Shown here: positions 1 through 15,364 of the stretch, one piece after another
How the letters are laid out: each line of letters begins with the position of its first letter
Numbering within the stretch: position 1 is the stretch's first letter
From: Candidatus Methylomirabilota bacterium
Lineage (GTDB): Bacteria > Methylomirabilota > Methylomirabilia > Methylomirabilales > JACPAU01
Length of the DNA: 17,589 nt
Direction of reading: 5' to 3'
NCBI GenBank assembly: GCA_016180705.1
Contig: JACPAU010000203.1
Span: 1 to 17,589 of the forward strand
Program-made: the position numbers and the translations under genes
The notes under the pieces: model-generated
The model's database searches: none
What the model saw: the letters and a program-made list of their open reading frames with translations, nothing else
Told to the model about the DNA's origin: nothing

Positions 1-122
1 GGCCCATCGGCTCTTGGCCGATGGGGGGAACCACGGGAGGGTTCCCCAGGGGGGCCGGGGGCCGGGGCGGCGCCGGCGACAGGACCCGGACCTTGTCACC
101 TTCGTTCTGTCGCTCGTATTAG
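1..122 (+). repeat. Palindromic MITE-like element, copy 1 (cut by window edge)
   Basis: This is the first of three copies of the same element (others at 1198-1393 and, inverted, at 3948-4142). The window edge removes its left part. The visible part holds hairpin I (CCCATCGGC at 3-11 pairing with GCCGATGGG at 17-25) and hairpin II (GGGGAACC at 25-32 pairing with GGTTCCCC at 40-47). A GC-rich arm follows, and the end reads GTCCTGTCGCC, TCCGGGT, GTGACA and CTAATAC when read inward on the minus strand. The end falls in the stop codon of the HIT gene: its TAA occupies 121-119. No protein is encoded. It is a non-coding, probably mobilised repeat placed just after the last gene of the his operon. 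Confidence 0.85.
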
Positions 123-472
123 CCGGGGGGCCAGGCCATCGGGCGGCCCGCGAGCAGGTGCATGTGGAGGTGGAAGATGAGTTGCCCCCCGTCCCGGTTC
201 GTATTCAGAACCAGCCGGAACCCGCTCTCCGCGACCCCGCGGTCCCGGGCCACCCGGTTGCCTGCCAGGATGAGGCGGCCCATCAGGGGGATTGAGGCCT
301 CCGTCAACTCCAGCGTGTGGGCCAGGTGCTGCTTGGGCACCAGCAGGACGTGGACCGGGGCCTGGGGATGGATGTCCTCGAAGGCGTAGATCTCTCCGTC
401 CTCGTAGACCGCCTTGCTCGGGACCTCCTTGGCCACGATCCTGCAAAAGAGGCACTGGGCCACCGCGCTCAC
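119..472 (-). CDS. HIT (histidine triad) family nucleotide-binding protein
   Basis: This is a small cytoplasmic HinT-like nucleotide hydrolase or transferase of about 117 residues, the usual length. An N-terminal CLFCRIV segment, which in this family often contributes a zinc site, is followed by the core [17 protein letters not shown]. The catalytic triad HLHMHLL lies near the C terminus, and the protein ends in WPPG like typical HinT proteins, so it is complete. The start is taken as GTG at 472, which overlaps the hisIE stop as GTGA. A second in-frame GTG at 463 has better spacing from GAGGAG and is the alternative. HIT genes are frequent last genes of his operons after hisI/hisE. The stop codon lies in the edge of the repeat at 1-122. 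The physiological substrate is unknown. Confidence 0.93.
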
Positions 473-1170
473 CTCTCCTCCGGACGCCCGTAGTCCGGCT
501 TCCGCTTCCCCTCCCGCCGCGCCAGCTCCGCCGCCAGGTCCTCCAGGGTGAGGTCGCACTCGGCGAGGAGGACCAGCGTGTGGAACCAGAGGTCGGCGAC
601 CTCGTAGCGGACGGCCTCGCGATCCCCCCCCTGGGCCGCGAGGAGGACCTCGGTCGTCTCCTCGCCGATCTTCTTCAGGATCCGCTCCCGGCCGCCGGCG
701 AACAGGTCCCCCACGTAGGAGCCGGCGGGGGCCGCGGCCTTCCGGTCGCGCACGGTCGCGAAGACACGCCGCAGGACGGCCGGGAGGCCGCCGTACACCG
801 CGGTGGGGTCGAAGCGCGCCTGCCCCTCCTCCGCCAGACCGCCCCCCGGCTCCACCCGCGTGAAGAAGCAGGAGCGGTTCCCGGTATGGCAGGCCGCCAC
901 CACCTGCTCGACCCGGATGAGCAGGGCATCGGCGTCGCAGTCCAGGTGCAGGCTCCGCACCCGCTGGACGTGGCCGGAGGTCTCCCCCTTCTGCCAGATG
1001 CGCTGGCGGGAGCGGCTGTAGAAGTGCGTGAGCCCGCTCGCCAGCGTCCGCTCCACGGCCTCCCGGTTCATGTAGGCGACCATGAGGACGTCGCCGTTCG
1101 CGTCGTCCTGGATGACGGCGGGGATCAGGCCCTGCGCGTCGAAGGCCAGTCTCTCCAGCAATGCGTTCAT
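469..1170 (-). CDS. hisIE: Bifunctional phosphoribosyl-AMP cyclohydrolase / phosphoribosyl-ATP pyrophosphatase (HisIE)
   Basis: This 233-residue protein catalyses steps 2 and 3 of histidine synthesis: PR-ATP pyrophosphohydrolysis, then opening of the PR-AMP adenine ring. The N-terminal HisI domain (about 1-125) has the metal-binding [10 protein letters not shown] stretch and the cysteine motif [10 protein letters not shown]. The C-terminal HisE domain (about 130-233) has the acidic helical signature [10 protein letters not shown] and [13 protein letters not shown]. The start is ATG at 1170, preceded by the purine-rich GGGGAGGAGG. The gene lies 27 nt downstream of repeat copy 2, so that element may affect its expression. 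Its stop overlaps the GTG of the HIT gene. Both domains look intact. Confidence 0.96.
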
Positions 1171-1197
1171 CCTCCTCCCCTTCCCAACGCGGGGCGG

Positions 1198-1393
1198 CTA
1201 ATACAAACGACATACATCGTGTCACCCAGAGTCCGGGTGGCGCCGGATGCCGCCCCCGGGCCCCCGTAGCGGAGGGGGGTCCCATCGGCGCTTGGCCGAT
1301 GGGGGGAACCACGGGAGGGTTCCCCAGGGGGGCCGGGGGCCGGGGCGGCGCCGGCGGCAGGACCCGGACGGTGTCACTGTCGTCCTGGCGTTG
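1198..1393 (+). repeat. Palindromic MITE-like element, copy 2 (between hisF and hisIE)
   Basis: The left end reads CTAATACAAACGACA, then GTGTCAC, GTCCGGGTGGCGCCGG and TGCCGCCCC. The right end read inward on the minus strand gives GTGACA, CGTCCGGGTCCTGCCGCC and GGCGCCGCCCC. The two ends therefore form an imperfect terminal inverted repeat of about 60 bp. Between them lie hairpin I (1281-1289 with 1295-1303) and hairpin II (1303-1310 with 1318-1325, loop ACGGGAG). The right boundary is less sharp than the others: similarity is clear to 1376 and weak to about 1393-1400. The hisF stop codon (1376-1374) lies inside this end. The 27 nt between the left end and hisIE hold the hisIE ribosome binding site. 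Confidence 0.85.
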
Positions 1394-1958
1394 CCGTCAG
1401 GGCCAGGTCGTAGCCGTCCTTCGTCCCGTCGCGGTCCATGCTGGTGAGGAGGATCTCGCCGGCCCCGAGCGCGGCGCCGCGCGCCGCCCACTCCACAGCC
1501 TCGAGGCCCGTGGGCGTGCGCCCGCCGTGGACGAAGACCTCCCACCCCCCGCCCGGCCGCCCCTTGGCGTCGATGGCCAGGACGATGCACTGGCTCCCGA
1601 AGCGCCCGGCCGCCTCGCGGATGAGGTCGGGATCCTTCACGGCCGCCGTGTTCAGGGAGACCTTGTCCGCGCCGGCGAGCAGCAGGGCCCGGATGTCCTC
1701 GAGGGAGGTGATCCCGCCCCCGACCGTCAGGGGCATGAAGGCCTGCTCCGCCGTCCGCTGGAGCACGTCCAGCATGATCTTGCGCCGCTCGTGCGAGGCG
1801 GTGATGTCCAGGAAGACCAGCTCGTCCGCCCCGGCGGCATCGTAGGCCGCCGCCGCCTCGGCGGGATCCCCCGCGTCCCGGAGGTTCACGAACCGCACCC
1901 CTTTCACCACCCGCCCGTCCCGGACGTCCAGGCACGGGATGATCCGCTTCGCCAGCAC
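1374..1958 (-). CDS. hisF: Imidazole glycerol phosphate synthase cyclase subunit HisF, C-terminally truncated
   Basis: HisF is the cyclase half of IGP synthase. It uses ammonia from HisH to turn PRFAR into IGP and AICAR. The frame starts with GTG at 1958, 1 nt after the hisA stop. The catalytic Asp of IIPCLDV near residue 11 and the second Asp of [10 protein letters not shown] are present, as is [15 protein letters not shown]. HisF-like sequence then stops at DLALT, followed by ATPGRQ and a TGA inside repeat copy 2. The product has 194 residues against about 250-255 normally, so the last one or two beta-alpha units with the second phosphate site are missing. The roughly 200 nt before hisIE cannot hold both the element and the lost part. 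It is probably non-functional unless this is an assembly artefact. Confidence 0.9.
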
Positions 1959-1959
1959 C

Positions 1960-2691
1960 TCACGCCCCGCCCTGGAAGCGCCGGATCACCGCGCCCAGAT
2001 CCACCGTCCCCTCGTAGAGCGCCCGGCCCAGGATGGCGCCGCCGACGCCGCGGGACTCGAGCCCCGCCACCGCCTCCAGGTGGGCGACCGTCGCGATGCC
2101 ACCAGACGCCAGGACCGGGACGCGGGCCGCCGCCGCGACCCGCGTGAGTTCCGCCACGTTCGGCCCGCCGAGCATCCCGTCGGACGCGATGTCGGTGTGG
2201 ACGATCCCCGAGGCGCCGAGGGCGGCGGCGGCTGCAGCCACCTCCGCGGCGTCCCGGCCCGTCTCCAGCTGCCAGCCCCGGACGGCGACCCGCCCGTTCC
2301 GGGCGTCCACCCCGACCAGAATCCGCCCCGGGAACCGCGCAGCCGCCGCCCGGACCAGGTCCGGGTCCTCCACGGCCGCGGTGCCGAGGACGGCCCAGGC
2401 CGCCCCGGCTGCGAGGACCGCCTCGACGTCCGCGAGCCGCCGGAGCCCCCCGCCGACCTGGAGGGGGAGACCGGTCGCGGCCGCGATGCGGGCGATGAGG
2501 GGCCGATTGCCGCTCCCGGTCCCGAGCGCCGCGTCCAGATCCACCACGTGCAGGCGGGACGCTCCGACCCCCGCGAACGCCGCGGCCGTGGCGACGGGAT
2601 CGGCGCTGTAGGTCTTCTCCCGGGTCGGGTCCCCCTGGAGGAGCCGGACGCACCGCCCCCCCCGGAGGTCGATCGCCGGGATGATCAGCAT
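1960..2691 (-). CDS. hisA: ProFAR isomerase HisA
   Basis: HisA is the 1-(5-phosphoribosyl)-5-[(5-phosphoribosylamino)methylideneamino] imidazole-4-carboxamide isomerase, which carries out the Amadori rearrangement that makes PRFAR. It is 243 residues long, normal for the family. The general base/acid aspartates are visible in [15 protein letters not shown] (near residue 8) and in [16 protein letters not shown] (near 130). Phosphate-binding glycines appear in LQVGGGLR and VLASGGIAT. The C-terminal half repeats the half-barrel fold with [14 protein letters not shown]. The ATG at 2691 overlaps the end of hisH by 7 nt, which suggests translational coupling because no good Shine-Dalgarno is seen. 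HisF follows after 1 nt. No defects were seen. Confidence 0.97.
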
Positions 2692-3329
2692 CGGAGGGCC
2701 AGGTCGCCGAAGTTCTTCAGGAGATGGAGGCCCAGGGCCTGGCTCTTCTCCGGGTGGAACTGGGTGGCCATGAGGTTGTCCCGCCAGAGGACCGCCGTGA
2801 AGGGGACGCCGTAGGCCGCCGTGGCCGCGACCACCTCCGCGTCCGCCGGGGCCACGTAGTAGGAGTGGACGAAGTAGAAGTGACTCCCGTCCGGGATGCC
2901 CTGGAGCAGGGGCGCGGCCTTGCGGATCCGGATGGGGACCCAGCCGATGAGGGGGACCTTGAGGGGGACGGGGGCCGTCCCGCCGGCGGCAGGCCCGTGC
3001 ACCGGGAACCGGACCACCTTCCCCGGGAGGAGGTCCAGGCCGCGGTGCCGCCCGAACTCCTCGCTCTCGGAGAAGAGGAAGTGCAGCCCCAGGCAGATGC
3101 CCAGGACCGGCTTGCCCTGCGCGATCTCCCGGCGGAGGGGCTCCACGAACCCGGCGGTCGTGAGCTTCGCGATCCCGTCGGCGAACGCCCCGACCCCGGG
3201 CAGGACGATCCCCCGCGCCTCCCGGAGCAGCCGGGGGTCCTCCACCACCTTGGCGGGATGGCCCACGCGCTCGAACGCCTTCTGGACGCTCCGGAGGTTG
3301 GCAATCCCCGAGTCGATGATGGCGATCAC
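2685..3329 (-). CDS. hisH: Imidazole glycerol phosphate synthase glutaminase subunit HisH
   Basis: HisH is a class I glutamine amidotransferase that hydrolyses glutamine and passes ammonia through the HisF barrel. It has 214 residues. The nucleophile Cys79 lies in GKPVLGICLGLHFLF, where the more usual continuation is GMQ, so the Gln position is His here. The catalytic His and Glu are in TQFHPEKSQ near the C terminus. The N terminus IAIIDSGIANLRSV and the oxyanion-strand segment LPGVGAFADG are typical. The start is GTG at 3329, 4 nt after the hisB stop. HisH is intact while its partner HisF is truncated, so the ammonia acceptor would be defective if the hisF lesion is real. Confidence 0.96.
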   Translation of the reverse strand: MIAIIDSGIANLRSVQKAFERVGHPAKVVEDPRLLREARGIVLPGVGAFADGIAKLTTAGFVEPLRREIAQGKPVLGICLGLHFLFSESEEFGRHRGLDLLPGKVVRFPVHGPAAGGTAPVPLKVPLIGWVPIRIRKAAPLLQGIPDGSHFYFVHSYYVAPADAEVVAATAAYGVPFTAVLWRDNLMATQFHPEKSQALGLHLLKNFGDLALRC

Positions 3330-3333
3330 GGCC

Positions 3334-3921
3334 TCAGAGCCTCCCCTTCGTCGAGGGAACGTCGCGGACCCGCGGGTTCCGGGAGGTCGCCTCGCCGAGG
3401 GCCCGGGCGGCCGCCTTGAAGATGGCCTCGGCCATGTGGTGGGTGTTCTCCCCGTGGGGGACGCCGACGTGCAGGTTGGCCTTCGCGGCCGTCGCGAACG
3501 CCCGGAAGAACTCCTTCAGGAGGAGGGCGTCGAACTCCCCGATCTTCCCCGTGAGCCGCTCGGCCTGGTAGACGAGGTAGGGGCGGCCGCCCAGGTCCAC
3601 CGCCACCCAGGCGAGGGCGTCGTCCATGGGGACGGCGGCGTGCCCGTAGCGGCGGATTCCCGCCTTCTCTCCCAGCGCCCGCGTCAGGGCCTCCCCGAGC
3701 GCGAGCCCCACGTCCTCCATGGTGTGGTGCGGGTCGACCTCCAGGTCTCCCTTCGCCCGGATCGTGAGATCGAAGGGGGCGTGGCGGGCCAGCTGGATCA
3801 GCATGTGGTCGAAGAAGGGGAGGCCCGTTTCCACCTTGAAGTGTCCCCGGCCGTCCAGGGTGACCTCGACGAGGACGTCGGTCTCGGTCGTCTTCCGGTG
3901 GACTCGCCCGCGGCGCGGCAT
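3334..3921 (-). CDS. hisB: Imidazoleglycerol-phosphate dehydratase HisB
   Basis: HisB dehydrates IGP to imidazole acetol phosphate in the cytoplasm. This is the monofunctional form of 195 residues, with no fused phosphatase domain. All manganese-binding signatures are present: LPFFDHML, DPHHTMEDVGLALG, ENTHHMAEAIFKA and a C-terminal PSTKG. The frame stays open upstream to 4050, but that part only translates repeat copy 3. ATG at 3921 is chosen because it is preceded by AAGGAG at 9 nt spacing and gives the family length. The gene lies 26 nt downstream of repeat copy 3, which separates it from hisC, so it may depend on read-through or on a promoter in the element. Confidence 0.96.
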   Translation of the reverse strand: MPRRGRVHRKTTETDVLVEVTLDGRGHFKVETGLPFFDHMLIQLARHAPFDLTIRAKGDLEVDPHHTMEDVGLALGEALTRALGEKAGIRRYGHAAVPMDDALAWVAVDLGGRPYLVYQAERLTGKIGEFDALLLKEFFRAFATAAKANLHVGVPHGENTHHMAEAIFKAAARALGEATSRNPRVRDVPSTKGRL

Positions 3922-3947
3922 CCTCTTCGTCTCCTTCTCCTCTTCTC

Positions 3948-4142
3948 CTAATTCAAACGACAGAATCAGAGTGACAACGTCCGGGTCCTGTCGCCGGCGC
4001 CGCCCCGGCCCCCCTGGGGAACCCTCCCGTGGTTCCCCCCATCGGCCCAAGGCCGCTGGGCCCCCCCTCCGCTACGGGGGCCAGGGGGCGGCATCCGGCG
4101 CCACCCGGACTTTGTGTCACACAAATTATATCGTAGTCCTAG
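3948..4142 (-). repeat. Palindromic MITE-like element, copy 3 (inverted, between hisC and hisB)
   Basis: This is the same element as copies 1 and 2 in the opposite orientation, about 195 bp long. Its left end on the plus strand reads CTAATTCAAACGACAGAA, then GTGACA and GTCCGGGTCCTGTCGCC. The right end read inward gives CTAGGACTACGATATAA, GTGTGACAC and GTCCGGGTGGCGCCGG. Hairpin II is at 4016-4023 with 4031-4038. Hairpin I is at 4038-4047 with 4051-4060 and carries one mismatch. It lacks a short GGGGCCG unit found in copies 1 and 2. The CTAG at 4139-4142 contains the hisC stop codon. The whole hisC-hisB intergenic space is this element plus the hisB leader. Confidence 0.85.
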
Positions 4143-5209
4143 CCCAGGATCCCCCGCAGGGCCGCGAGCAGCGCGTCGTTCTCCTCCGGCGTCCCCACCG
4201 TGATCCGCAGGCAGTCCCGGAGGTACCGGGCATCGTCGAAATCCCGGACCAGGATCCCCCGGTCGAGCAGTCCGCGGAAGACCTCCCGGGCCGGACGCGC
4301 CGTCCGGACCAGGAGGAAGTTGGCCTCCGAGGGAAACACGGTCAACCCCCGCAGCGTCCGCAGGGCCGCCGCGACGCGCTCCCGCTCGGCCACGATCTGC
4401 CGGACCTGCTGCCGGAGCAGATCCCGGTGCTTCAGGACCGCGGTCGCCGCCGCCTGCGAGAGGGCGTTGAGGTTGTAGGGGAGGCGGACCTTCTCCAGCT
4501 CGGCGAGGACGGCTTCGTCCGCCACCAGGTACCCCACCCGGAGCCCGGCGAGCCCCACCTTGGACAGGGTCCGAAGAATGAGGAGGTGGAGATGGGCGGG
4601 GAGCTCCGGGAGGAAGGTCTTCCCGGAGAAGTCCGCGTAGGCCTCGTCGAGGACGACGAGGCCCGGGGCGGCGGCTAATGCTGCCCGGATCACGTCGGGG
4701 TCGTAGCAGTTGCCCGTCGGGTTGTTGGGGGAGGCGATGAAGGTCACAACGGGCCGGGCCTCCGCGAGCCTCCGGAGGAAGGCGTCCCGGTCGAGGGTGA
4801 AGCCGTCCCCGGGCGGCACCTCCACACACGTCAGACCGAGCGCCTGCCCCGTCACCGCGTACATGGAGAAGGTCGGAACCGGGACCAACACCGCGGCCCC
4901 CGGCCGGGCCACCGCCATCAGGATCATCTGAATCAGCTCGTCGGAGCCGTTGCCCAGCAGGATCTGCTCCGGGGGGACACCGACCATCGCAGCCAGCTGG
5001 CGCTTCAGGGCTCGTCCCGCCGGGTCCGGGTAGCGGTTCGCCGGGACCCGCCCGAGGGCCTCCTGCACCGCCGCCTGGACGGGGGCCGGGAGCGGATAGG
5101 GGCTCTCGTTGGCGTCCAGCTTCACCCGGTGCGGGCGGTCCTCCACCTGGTAGGCCGTAAGACGGGCCAGCTCGGGACGGAGGATCTCGGACAGGGATCG
5201 CGTGCTCAT
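4139..5209 (-). CDS. hisC: Histidinol-phosphate aminotransferase HisC
   Basis: HisC is a PLP-dependent fold-type I aminotransferase that converts imidazole acetol phosphate and glutamate to histidinol phosphate. It has 356 residues, the standard length. Visible hallmarks are KLDANESPYPLP at the N terminus, LLGNGSDELIQM, SPNNPTGNCY, the strand VVLDEAYADF with its PLP-pyridine Asp, the Schiff-base lysine in RTLSKVGLAGLRVGY, and the substrate-binding arginine near DCLRITVGTPEEN. ATG at 5209 overlaps the hisD stop as ATGA. A much longer frame continuing upstream is only the antisense-like shadow of hisD. The TAG stop lies in the edge of repeat copy 3, and the C terminus appears complete. Confidence 0.97.
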   Translation of the reverse strand: MSTRSLSEILRPELARLTAYQVEDRPHRVKLDANESPYPLPAPVQAAVQEALGRVPANRYPDPAGRALKRQLAAMVGVPPEQILLGNGSDELIQMILMAVARPGAAVLVPVPTFSMYAVTGQALGLTCVEVPPGDGFTLDRDAFLRRLAEARPVVTFIASPNNPTGNCYDPDVIRAALAAAPGLVVLDEAYADFSGKTFLPELPAHLHLLILRTLSKVGLAGLRVGYLVADEAVLAELEKVRLPYNLNALSQAAATAVLKHRDLLRQQVRQIVAERERVAAALRTLRGLTVFPSEANFLLVRTARPAREVFRGLLDRGILVRDFDDARYLRDCLRITVGTPEENDALLAALRGILG

Positions 5210-6528
5210 GCCTGCAACCGGATCCGGACCGCCTCTCGGTGCCCCTGGAGCCCCTCGAGGGCGGCGAGCGCCATGGCCGGCCGGCCGAGCCGGCGGAGTC
5301 CCGCTGCCGTCGCGGCGATGACGCTGCTCCGCTTCTGGAAGTCCTCCACGGACAGCGGCGAGGCGAACCGCGCCCGCCCTCCCGTCGGCAGGACGTGGCT
5401 CGGCCCGGCCACGTAGTCTCCCAGGGTCTCCGGCGTGTACTGGCCGAGGAAGATGGCCCCGGCGTTCCGGACGGCCTCGAGGTGCGCCCAGGGCTTCGCC
5501 ACGCAGAGCTCCAGGTGCTCCGGGGCGAGGGCGTTGGCCACCTCCAGGGCCTGGCCCAGGTCGGCCGTGAGGCACAGGGCCCCCCAACGCGCCAGCGAGG
5601 CGGCGGCCACCGCCCGCCGGGGGAGAGCCGCGAGCTGCGCCGTGAGCGCCCCCGCCACCGCCTCCGCGAACGGCCGGCTCGGCGTGAGGAGCAGGGCGGA
5701 GGCGCTCTCGTCGTGCTCCGCCTGGGAGAGCAGGTCCGCCGCCACGTAGGGGGGACTGGCGCTCCCGTCCGCCACCACCACGATCTCCGTCGGGCCCGCC
5801 ACCATGTCGATCCCGACCTCGCCGGCCACGAGGGCTTTGGCCGCCGAGACGTACAGGTTCCCGGGGCCGACGATCTTCTCCACCTTCGGAACCGCGGCGG
5901 TACCGTACGCCAGGGCGGCGATGGCCTGCGGTCCGCCGACCTTGTAGACCTCTCGCACCCCCGTGAGCGCCGCGGCCAGCAGGACGGCAGGCGGGACCCT
6001 CCCGTCCCGGCCGACGGGCGTCACCATCGCCACCCGGGGCACCCCCGCGACCGCGGCCGGGATGGCCATCATCAGGACCGAGGAAGGATAGGCCGCCTTC
6101 CCTCCGGGGACGTAGACGCCCACGGACGCGAGCGGCCGGGTGAGGACCCCGACGGTCACGCCCGGCTCGGTCGCCAGCCACGATTCCCGGAGGGCCCGCC
6201 GGTGGAAGGCCTCGATCCGGGCCGCGGCCAGCCGGAGGGCGGCGGCCGCCTCGCGCGGCACCGCCCGCCGCGCGGCGGCGAACTCCCCGGGCCTGACCCG
6301 AACCGTCGCCGCAGTGAGGCGCGCGCCGTCCAGCCGCCGCGCCCAGGCCAGGAGCGCCCGGTCGCCCTCCTCCCGCAGCGCCCGCAGGATCGGCCGGACG
6401 GCCCGCTCGGCGGCCGCCGTGCTCCGGGCGCGCCGCCGGCGCCACTGGTCGAGGAACGCCGACGCCTCCGGTCTCGTGAGATCCAGGAGCCGGACCGGAG
6501 GCCGACCGGACGGTCCCCGCCGCCTCAC
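5206..6528 (-). CDS. hisD: Histidinol dehydrogenase HisD
   Basis: HisD is a zinc enzyme that oxidises L-histidinol to histidine in two NAD-dependent steps, the last reactions of the pathway. The start is GTG at 6528, overlapping the hisG stop as GTGA. This gives 440 residues, close to the usual 430-440; the frame is open further upstream but that part overlaps hisG. Zinc ligands are visible: Gln and His in LLSQAEHDESA, Asp in LGDYVAGPSHVLPTGG and the late His in LQGHREAVRI. The catalytic Glu-His pair is in LAPEHLELC. NAD-site segments VYVPGGKAAYPS and VGPGNLYVSAAK are normal. The N-terminal about 20 residues are Arg-rich and poorly conserved. Confidence 0.96.
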   Translation of the reverse strand: MRRRGPSGRPPVRLLDLTRPEASAFLDQWRRRRARSTAAAERAVRPILRALREEGDRALLAWARRLDGARLTAATVRVRPGEFAAARRAVPREAAAALRLAAARIEAFHRRALRESWLATEPGVTVGVLTRPLASVGVYVPGGKAAYPSSVLMMAIPAAVAGVPRVAMVTPVGRDGRVPPAVLLAAALTGVREVYKVGGPQAIAALAYGTAAVPKVEKIVGPGNLYVSAAKALVAGEVGIDMVAGPTEIVVVADGSASPPYVAADLLSQAEHDESASALLLTPSRPFAEAVAGALTAQLAALPRRAVAAASLARWGALCLTADLGQALEVANALAPEHLELCVAKPWAHLEAVRNAGAIFLGQYTPETLGDYVAGPSHVLPTGGRARFASPLSVEDFQKRSSVIAATAAGLRRLGRPAMALAALEGLQGHREAVRIRLQA

Positions 6529-13096: not shown

Positions 13097-15364
13097 TCAG
13101 TCGCCCTCCGGCCCCGCCGCCTCCGCCTCCTCCGCCACCGGTCCGCCGCCCTGGAGGAAGGGGAGGAACTTCGCGTGCAGTTCCTCCAGTTTCCCGATGT
13201 AGTACTCTACGTTCTCGTCCGGGTGGGCCGGATCCCACTCCGCCGCCAGCCTCCCGTGCTCGTGCACCTTGACCTTCCGGCCCCGCCCGGTCACGTAATA
13301 CGAGATTTGATCCCCCGGCTGGTAGGGGCGCTCGGCCTTGAGGCCCAGTTCGTAGGCGGCGGCCGGGTTCCGCTTCTTCTGCCGGACCTTCTCCCGGTAG
13401 CTCTCCAGCGACTCCTGGAGGGTCTCCGTCTTCATGAACATCTCGACGTCGAACTCGTGGCGCCGGAAGGCCTCCCGGTAGCGCTCCAGCAGGGCCGGGA
13501 CCTTCTCCCGCTCCCCCGTGAGGGCCAGCCGGAACATCTCCTCCATCCAGCGCCGCTGGAACAGCTCCAGTCCCCGCGACCGGAGACCGGAGCCGCGGAT
13601 GATCAGCCGGTCCGCCTCGTCCAGGAGGGCGTAGTTCTTCATCTTGTACGAGAACATGGCCGGGTAGCGGCCGTCGAACTCCAGCGTGATGCCCGCCGGG
13701 AGGGTGCGGATGAGCTCCTCGACCAGCGCCTCGGCCTCGGCCTCCCCCACGGTGGGCGGGGGCATGAAGTAGAGGCCGTCCGTGTCCACCTCGATCACCT
13801 GGCAGCCCCGGCGCTCCAGCCACGCCACGATCTGCCGGATGAGGGCGCGGCCGGCCGCCGCCACGCGCTTCGCCTGGTCGAAGTCGTTGAAGTGGCCGAG
13901 CGCGAAGCCCAGGTAGCCGTAGAAGGAGTTGATCAGAACCTTGAAGGTGGCCTGGAGCGCCTCGATCCCCTGCCGCTCCCGCTCCGTCGGGGCGGCCCGG
14001 GCCGCCGCCTTGGCCTCGAGCCGGAAGGCCCGCAGGTCCGTGAGGAGCACCGGGAAGACCCCGAGGGTGTCGCTCCGGGGGAACAGGCCGTCCTTCAGCA
14101 TGAGGGACGGGTACAGCGAGGCCACGTCGCAGTGCAGGACGGAGCGGGCGACCCCGACGTACTTGACCGCCGTGTAGCCCCCGGCGAACGGCTGGGCGGG
14201 GCCCGGGAGCGGGATGGCCTGCCGCTGCCGGAGGTACTCCCGGAGGAGGAGCGCGTCGATCTTCGTGGCGGTCCCCCGCAGGACGACGTTCTGGTAGGAG
14301 TAGGGGAAGATCTGGGCCTGGACGAAGTAGGACCGGCTGAGGAGCGCGGCCAGCGCCTCGGTCTCCCGGACGTCGTCCAGGGCGTACCGGCAGAGCGTCT
14401 CGGGGTCGTGATCGAAGTACCAGGAGGCCCGGTGCGCCGGGATCGTCACCCGGTCCGGCGAGGTGAGGCCGAAGTGCCGGGCCACCTCCTTCAGCCCGTA
14501 GCCCTCCAGTTCCCGCGCCGCCACGTCGTAGAAGTTGGCCAGCATCCAGGTGTCCACGACGTGCCGGCCGGCGATCTCGTACTTGGTGTAGGTGATGGTC
14601 CGCTCCGCCACCTGCAGGCGCGAGGGGTGCCCGGCGAGCGCGCCCCCGTCCCGACCCCACGCGAGCGGCACGGCGTGCCGCCTGGCCCGGGCCTCGAGGT
14701 AGGGGAGGTCGAAGCGGAAGAGGTTGTGGCCCTCCAGGATGTCCGGGTCGCGCGCCTGGAGTTCCCGGCTGACCTCCCGGAGCATGCTCGCCTCGTCCCA
14801 CTCCCGCCCCGACAGGACCCGCTCCCAGCCGGTGCTGTCCCGGAGCGCGACGGCCGTGATGCGGTCCGACTCCCGCTCCGCGTTGGGGAACTCGAAGCCC
14901 GAGGCGCAGTAGGTCTCGATGTCGAGCTGCAGGCGCCGGAGGTCCTCGAAGGCGAGGCCGAGGAAGAGGGTCTGGCCCGAGAGGAGGAGATGCTGGTGGA
15001 CGGGGTCGTTGAAGAAACGGTAGGGGGCGTCCGGGGCGGCGGCGGTCTTCCCCGAGCCCTTCTGGAGGTGCGCCCGGAGTCGCAGCGCCTCCCCCCAGCC
15101 CGGCACCCGGGCCAGGTAGCGGAGGGGGGCCTCCCCCGCCAGCGCCTCCACGTCGGCGGCCCCGGCGTAGCCCTTCAGCAGGTCGGTGCTGGCCAGGAGG
15201 AGGAAAGGGGAAAAGGGGAGGCGCCGGGTGACGAGCCGGCCCCCCTCGCGGAGGTAGCAGCAGATCTCGCTCTCGCCGGCCCGCTCCACGGCGACCAGGC
15301 GGGGCGTCGCATCGTGCCCGAAGAGGAGCGCATTCTCGTAGAGGCTGAGGGCGCCGAGCCTCAC
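13097..15364 (-). CDS. polB: Family B DNA polymerase with 3'-5' proofreading exonuclease
   Basis: This is a DNA-directed DNA polymerase of the PolII/archaeal B type, 755 residues. The 3'-5' exonuclease motifs are intact: ExoI LDIETY (148-150), ExoII GHNLFRFDLPYLEAR (from 212) and ExoIII YALDDVRETEAL (from 327). The polymerase motifs follow: A with DVASLYPSLML (413-423), B with KVLINSFYGYLGF (475-487) and C with EVDTDGLYF (527-530), where Gly replaces the usual Ser of DTDS while both aspartates remain. The start is GTG at 15364, overlapping the stop of the upstream 5'-3' exonuclease gene as GTGA, so the two are coupled. The frame is open far upstream without a stop, but that part is a shadow. 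A role in repair or primer replacement with the exonuclease is inferred. Confidence 0.93.
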   Translation of the reverse strand: MRLGALSLYENALLFGHDATPRLVAVERAGESEICCYLREGGRLVTRRLPFSPFLLLASTDLLKGYAGAADVEALAGEAPLRYLARVPGWGEALRLRAHLQKGSGKTAAAPDAPYRFFNDPVHQHLLLSGQTLFLGLAFEDLRRLQLDIETYCASGFEFPNAERESDRITAVALRDSTGWERVLSGREWDEASMLREVSRELQARDPDILEGHNLFRFDLPYLEARARRHAVPLAWGRDGGALAGHPSRLQVAERTITYTKYEIAGRHVVDTWMLANFYDVAARELEGYGLKEVARHFGLTSPDRVTIPAHRASWYFDHDPETLCRYALDDVRETEALAALLSRSYFVQAQIFPYSYQNVVLRGTATKIDALLLREYLRQRQAIPLPGPAQPFAGGYTAVKYVGVARSVLHCDVASLYPSLMLKDGLFPRSDTLGVFPVLLTDLRAFRLEAKAAARAAPTERERQGIEALQATFKVLINSFYGYLGFALGHFNDFDQAKRVAAAGRALIRQIVAWLERRGCQVIEVDTDGLYFMPPPTVGEAEAEALVEELIRTLPAGITLEFDGRYPAMFSYKMKNYALLDEADRLIIRGSGLRSRGLELFQRRWMEEMFRLALTGEREKVPALLERYREAFRRHEFDVEMFMKTETLQESLESYREKVRQKKRNPAAAYELGLKAERPYQPGDQISYYVTGRGRKVKVHEHGRLAAEWDPAHPDENVEYYIGKLEELHAKFLPFLQGGGPVAEEAEAAGPEGD

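Follow-up and report, generated by a model that had tools for sequence, protein, structure and literature searches.

A hisF gene cut short beside a repeat found on stop codons in a Candidatus Methylomirabilota genome

The histidine gene cluster examined here raises a simple question: what became of the 3' end of hisF, which is missing at a copy of a repeat, beside neighbours that are full length? The window, meaning the whole stretch of 17,589 nt that was analysed, comprises all of contig C150 in a Candidatus Methylomirabilota MAG of 302 contigs and 1.65 Mb with 64% completeness. It was compared with three genomes of the same genus (G001, G002 and G003, hereafter the sisters), which belong to other species than the window's MAG. 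The his genes lie on the minus strand, and hisF and hisIE have the same order and strand as in the sisters. As originally predicted, hisIE (469..1170, minus strand), hisA (1960..2691, minus strand) and hisH (2685..3329, minus strand) are intact and of full length by profile, with hisA covering profile positions 1-228 of 231 and scoring slightly under its cut-off (226.8 against 228.95 bits). The gene that we take from its sequence to be hisB (3334..3921, minus strand) is full length against the three sisters, and a gene that from sequence alone is presumably HIT-like (119..472, minus strand) ends on a TAA (119-121) supplied by copy 1 of the repeat. The position of the break in hisF is explained by a repeat family that lies on stop codons, a point absent from the original prediction, and we regard this repeat as a more interesting object than the loss of hisF itself.

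Extent of the hisF truncation

The truncated hisF (1374..1958, minus strand) encodes 194 aa, its sequence being native from 1958 through 1393 and the remainder being read from the element. Against the HisF profile TIGR00735 it scores 287.3 bits over positions 1-192 of 254, without reaching the cut-off of 294.55, and solved HisF proteins of 252-258 residues (the three best among the matches listed) align only to residue 186, 188 or 189. The GGAG stretch of the solved proteins, which we take to have a functional role, lies past the aligned part, and this C-terminal part is absent from the truncated gene together with the end of the barrel. The profile range and a break at the repeat bear out the claim that hisF loses its C terminus at repeat copy 2.

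All three sisters carry a complete hisF, and none has an element in the gap between hisF and hisIE. The first 188 residues of the window's hisF are 90-92% identical to those of G001-G003, and 190 nt separate the matching point from the hisF stop in each sister, which puts the loss at about 62 residues. It had also been suggested that about 170 extra nucleotides in a sister genome would speak against the truncation. Such nucleotides are present, 190 of them in all three, but as the sisters are other species, what they show is the ancestral condition and not a fault of assembly. The identity of the 188 residues, together with an element present in dozens of copies, argues that the truncation is not a product of chance.

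No trace of the missing 3' part exists ahead of hisIE in the window, which agrees with the original prediction and was confirmed by comparison with the sisters. Searching the MAG with the 62 C-terminal HisF residues of a sister gave nothing convincing, the sole match at E up to 10 having an E of 0.51 and lying inside hisA. Because the 3' part is absent rather than displaced, a spliced or skipped insertion in hisF was set aside. The HisF model found no second hisF in this 64% complete MAG; one may sit in the missing third. Each of the three options first raised keeps some probability: that histidine synthesis is broken, that another hisF exists, or that the assembly is wrong.

Across 41 genomes, the window's own included, 36 have a hisF match over the cut-off, with the best match reaching model position 254. 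The other five are the window's MAG, G012, G029, G034 and G038, the last four with pieces of HisF; the pieces in G029 and G034 reach contig edges, as does one of the two G038 pieces. G029 was considered as a parallel truncation, its only HisF piece above 60 bits starting at model position 194, and rejected: the match ends at 14711 of 14715, and this stop 4 nt short of the contig end marks a cut contig. Among the 80 loci kept, in a list that may omit the window's own kin, no hisF of a named genome exceeds 74% identity. One of these loci, L139 from a Candidatus Methylomirabilota record, was compared further: over long pieces its DNA is about 77-79% identical to several loci of the order studied here, which probably places the order in that phylum.

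The repeat family, its target site and its placement

The consensus element, modelled from 13 copies with complete ends, is 203 nt long, with ends of the form CTAATACAAACGA... and an interior that is an imperfect palindrome. Its terminal inverted repeats (CTAATACAAACGACA / TGTCGTTTGTATTAG), short length and many copies are those of a MITE, as is the lack of a transposase of its own, for which 203 nt is far too short. At least 90 copies were collected in the examined stretches of G000-G003, from part of the places listed in searches that scored at most 40 candidates per genome; 55 are complete, 26 are cut only by the edge of a contig or stretch, and 9 are of other kinds. The end pattern gave 65, 40, 19 and 6 matches in G000-G003, against none for a reversed control pattern. 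Within the order, where at most 23 candidates were scored per genome, the element was found in 4 of 35 genomes, all four from this genus. No Rfam family matches the element in window positions 1-4300 at E up to 1. A short form of 95-99 nt without the middle also occurs in G000, G001 and G002 (L280 490-588, L281 497-591 and L235 5943-6037).

Besides copy 2 at hisF, the window holds copy 1 (1..122, plus strand; model positions 83-203 at 2-122), cut by the contig start, and copy 3 between hisC and hisB (3948..4134, minus strand; model positions 10-203). The hisC-side end of copy 3 is diverged, and G001 shares its hisB-side part as far as the contig there extends. At the corresponding place between hisC and hisB, G002 carries a different sequence of about 240 nt directly 3' of the CTAG of hisC (L064, about 5535-5776), with arms that resemble the inner arms of the element; this is possibly another subfamily. 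At L007 1206-1409 and L018 1499-1701 the element lies mid-way in a flanking inverted repeat, as though a terminator-like hairpin had been split at a CTAG in its loop.

The target site was read from empty sites. When 107 element flanks from G000, G001 and G003 were compared with 694 kb of G002, 29 had a match, and CTAG stands at the junction in all nine sites that read as empty (11 rows); for a few of them the final bases lie past the aligned part and were matched by eye. Six further rows (four sites) are occupied in G002 too, and 12 could not be read cleanly. These 12 include the hisF site, as the G002 gene ends in TGA, and the hisB site, at which a different sequence stands in G002. The cluster itself holds two comparable cases: in all three sisters the HIT-like gene ends GGC-TAG, an empty CTAG, and the window's version ends GGC-TAA-TAC; likewise hisC ends GCC-TAG-GAG in G003, again an empty CTAG, where copy 3 of the window reads ...TTAG-GAG at the same place. 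An arrangement of C-TA-[element]-TA-G against an empty CTAG means that TA was doubled on insertion, and on these alignments the element is read as inserting at CTAG with TA doubling.

The ends were also surveyed for genes running into them. Of 142 intact ends, the 129 with at least 310 nt of flank were examined for a coding-like frame, defined as one open for at least 80 codons with G+C highest at the third and lowest at the second codon position, exactly one being accepted per end. Sixty-four ends had such a frame and 65 had none. In 62 of the 64 the stop is formed by element positions 2-4, turning TAG into TAA; of the remaining two, one stops at position 25 and the other has no stop within 60 nt. 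A further 16 ends were listed, of which 15 were tested with 245 nt of flank or more: 10 of 10 coding-like frames stopped at position 2, and five ends lacked such a frame, one of these five being shared with the first set. The frame rule of 62 in 64 is largely a consequence of the target word CTAG. Taken copy by copy, both ends could be tested in 41, and in 34 of these one or more genes end on the element, some copies in this count being related by descent (four sites common to genomes). As a control, the rule was applied to those CTAG sites of the G002 stretches that do not belong to elements; it holds for 85 of the 183 that are not inside a coding-like frame and for one of a further 36 that are. 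The difference between 34/41 and 85/183 has p = 2e-5 by Fisher's test, with a control drawn from one sister genome and crude gene calls. CTAG is itself depleted in these stretches, with 237 occurrences where base composition predicts about 1,804; by a simpler gene count 76 of the 237 are called stop codons, 60 are inside genes, 99 are between genes and two are in elements.

The surplus over the available CTAG sites suggests either selection against insertions elsewhere or targeting. A broader and tentative reading, to which we give somewhat less than an even chance, is that the element is a stop-codon specialist by way of its CTAG target, selection elsewhere and perhaps targeting of gene ends, with the loss of hisF as a cost of that habit. 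Were this true, each insertion would leave a gene with TAG changed to TAA and a long RNA hairpin 3' of it, and the loss of hisF would be a deletion from the element reaching back into its host gene. In the same cluster copies 1 and 3 (119-122 and 3948-4141) also lie on stop codons, those of the HIT-like gene and hisC. Two convergent genes both end on the element in 4 of 41 copies and on 6 of 183 control CTAG sites; such pairs are as expected if both genes once used one CTAG palindrome as their stops.

The junction and the history of the break

Copy 2 (1198..1392, plus strand) covers model positions 1-195 of 203. Its hisIE-side end is complete, with CTAATACAAACGACA at 1198-1212, 27 nt ahead of the hisIE start codon, and the 27-nt spacer (1171..1197) holds the ribosome-binding-like GGAGGAGG. 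On the hisF side only, the final 8 model positions are gone. The boundary between native hisF and element, likely a deletion junction, lies at 1392..1393: at 1392 the element takes over, its model positions descending from 195 to 1, and the native coding strand up to 1393 reads CTGACGGC, against CTGACCGC in G002 and G003 and CTCACCGC in G001. Positions 1393-1400 equal the sister hisF at 7 of 8 places for G002 and G003 and at 6 of 8 for G001. The break thus falls inside the interval 1365-1400 first given for it, and not at 1374, the boundary being 19 nt further into the gene. Ala189 takes its first two bases from native sequence and its third from the element, which also supplies the TPGRQ codons and the TGA that follow. 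The RNA of copy 2, taken together with 8 nt of flank, is predicted to fold at -114.8 kcal/mol (z = -4.4).

We prefer to think in terms of a two-step history, at a probability of roughly two in three: a harmless insertion at or near the hisF stop, followed by a deletion of about 200 bp that left a product most likely inactive. Copy 2 is one of many short non-autonomous elements, MITEs, with CTAG as target and a doubled TA. The genus is rich in G+C and CTAG is rare in it, and many of the surviving sites are stop codons (xxC TAG), where insertion does no more than turn TAG into TAA. Judged by the rule of the family, the original site having been deleted, copy 2 would have landed at or near the stop of hisF, the stop codon itself being the place expected; the G001 gene, ending CCC-TAG-GGG, offers a ready target, against which stand the TGA ends of G002 and G003. 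A later deletion, deduced from the junction seen in the contig, would have removed the last 62 or so codons of hisF and the outermost 8 nt of the element, its size of about 200 bp being the sum of 190 nt from hisF, judged from the gene in the sisters, and 7-8 nt from the element. Translation would then pass from codon 189 into the element and end at the TGA there, and the 194-aa product is most likely an inactive cyclase subunit. On this reading the break happened recently or is carried by few members of the population. Insertion followed by one deletion explains both the complete end on the hisIE side and the 8 nt lost on the hisF side.

The state of that hisF-side end also bears on an account in which one copy of the element, or a pair, went directly into hisF, the segment being lost on insertion or by recombination between the copies. 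Element and break do coincide, and two nearby copies could, by reasoning, be collapsed by an assembler. A fresh insertion would nevertheless keep a complete hisF-side end, of which 8 nt are gone, and coding-like frames entering the element in another frame make up only 2 of 64, so that we consider direct insertion improbable.

The junction might instead be an artefact, a chimeric molecule or faulty assembly having dropped about 200 bp from an organism whose complete hisF ends on the element. A MAG in 302 contigs and 64% complete leaves room for this, as do the 26 of 90 examined copies that are cut by an edge and the lack of decay in the remaining 188 codons. Against it, a mis-join at a repeat would fall inside the repeat, and here unique hisF meets an element without 8 nt; no word common to both sides of the junction is visible by eye, and hisF and hisIE keep the order and strand seen in the sisters. 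An artefact is therefore unlikely, if still the strongest competitor of the two-step history. Since the contig joins unique hisF to a repeat lacking 8 nt of its end, molecules or reads that span the junction should probably exist.

The 188 codons that remain carry no sign of relaxed selection. Their dN/dS is 0.090-0.145 for the window against its sisters and 0.094-0.159 between sisters. There are 8 private hisF residues in the window's lineage against 4-5 per sister; this lineage has the most private residues in four of five other genes as well, the exception being the HIT-like gene. The unrelaxed codons point to a break that is young, absent from most of the population or an artefact, and the missing decay could also reflect a truncated allele other than the common one. 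They could also be claimed for a shortened HisF that still works or is re-used, the break being retained, as could the full length of hisIE, hisA and hisH. What is gone, however, includes the GGAG stretch and last barrel strands of the solved HisFs, in 36 of 41 genomes the best match extends as far as model position 254, and a recent break is the simpler account of the missing decay; a working short HisF is very improbable. In practice, an enzyme part missing beside such a repeat should be checked in the reads before a pathway is called broken.

Comparison with known systems

The truncated hisF resembles the HisF family (TIGR00735) closely over its first 188-189 residues, through the DRDGT stretch, and differs from it in lacking the C-terminal 62 or so residues and in falling under the cut-off. 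The repeat offers a simple account of the way in which a mobile element may multiply in a compact genome and break few genes: occurrences of its target word are depleted, many of those left are stop codons, and at those sites its own end rebuilds the stop. Among the titles and abstract beginnings in the matches listed, a literature search gave no element lying on stop codons, which is no proof of absence.

A transposase with the ends of the element was not found in the four genomes searched with DDE_3 (PF13358) only, two of the MAGs being about 64% complete; DDE_3 occurs in one of the four, at a contig edge in G002 and without the element's ends. Inward-facing pairs of ends 0.8-3 kb apart were absent among the matches to one end pattern with one mismatch allowed. 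The G002 match (L216 12-454, G002:C23) is a partial transposase of IS630 type, and after it, at 445-454, the sequence reads ...ACTGCA-C-TA-G, a different end and possibly a CTAG site too.

By the title of a 1991 paper by Tenzen and Ohtsubo, an IS630-associated transposon reportedly prefers TA in 5'-CTAG-3'. MITEPsy1 of Pseudomonas syringae is described in passages of PMC3189936 as using CTAG or YTAA as its target, as producing a 4-nt duplication and as linked to ISPsy2. The present element is likewise short and non-autonomous with a CTAG target, as far as those passages describe MITEPsy1; unlike MITEPsy1 it has other ends and a placement on stop codons, of which the same passages make no mention. 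For IS630 and ISY100, the passages of PMC2170065 describe a doubling of TA on insertion. Our element differs from the IS630/Tc1-mariner group in that its membership is assigned from its ends and target, and in its placement on stop codons, which does not appear in the passages on those families. It shares with that group, and with MITEs, the doubled TA, the CTAG target, the short non-coding body and the terminal inverted repeats, and by these features of its sequence it is probably a MITE of IS630 type.
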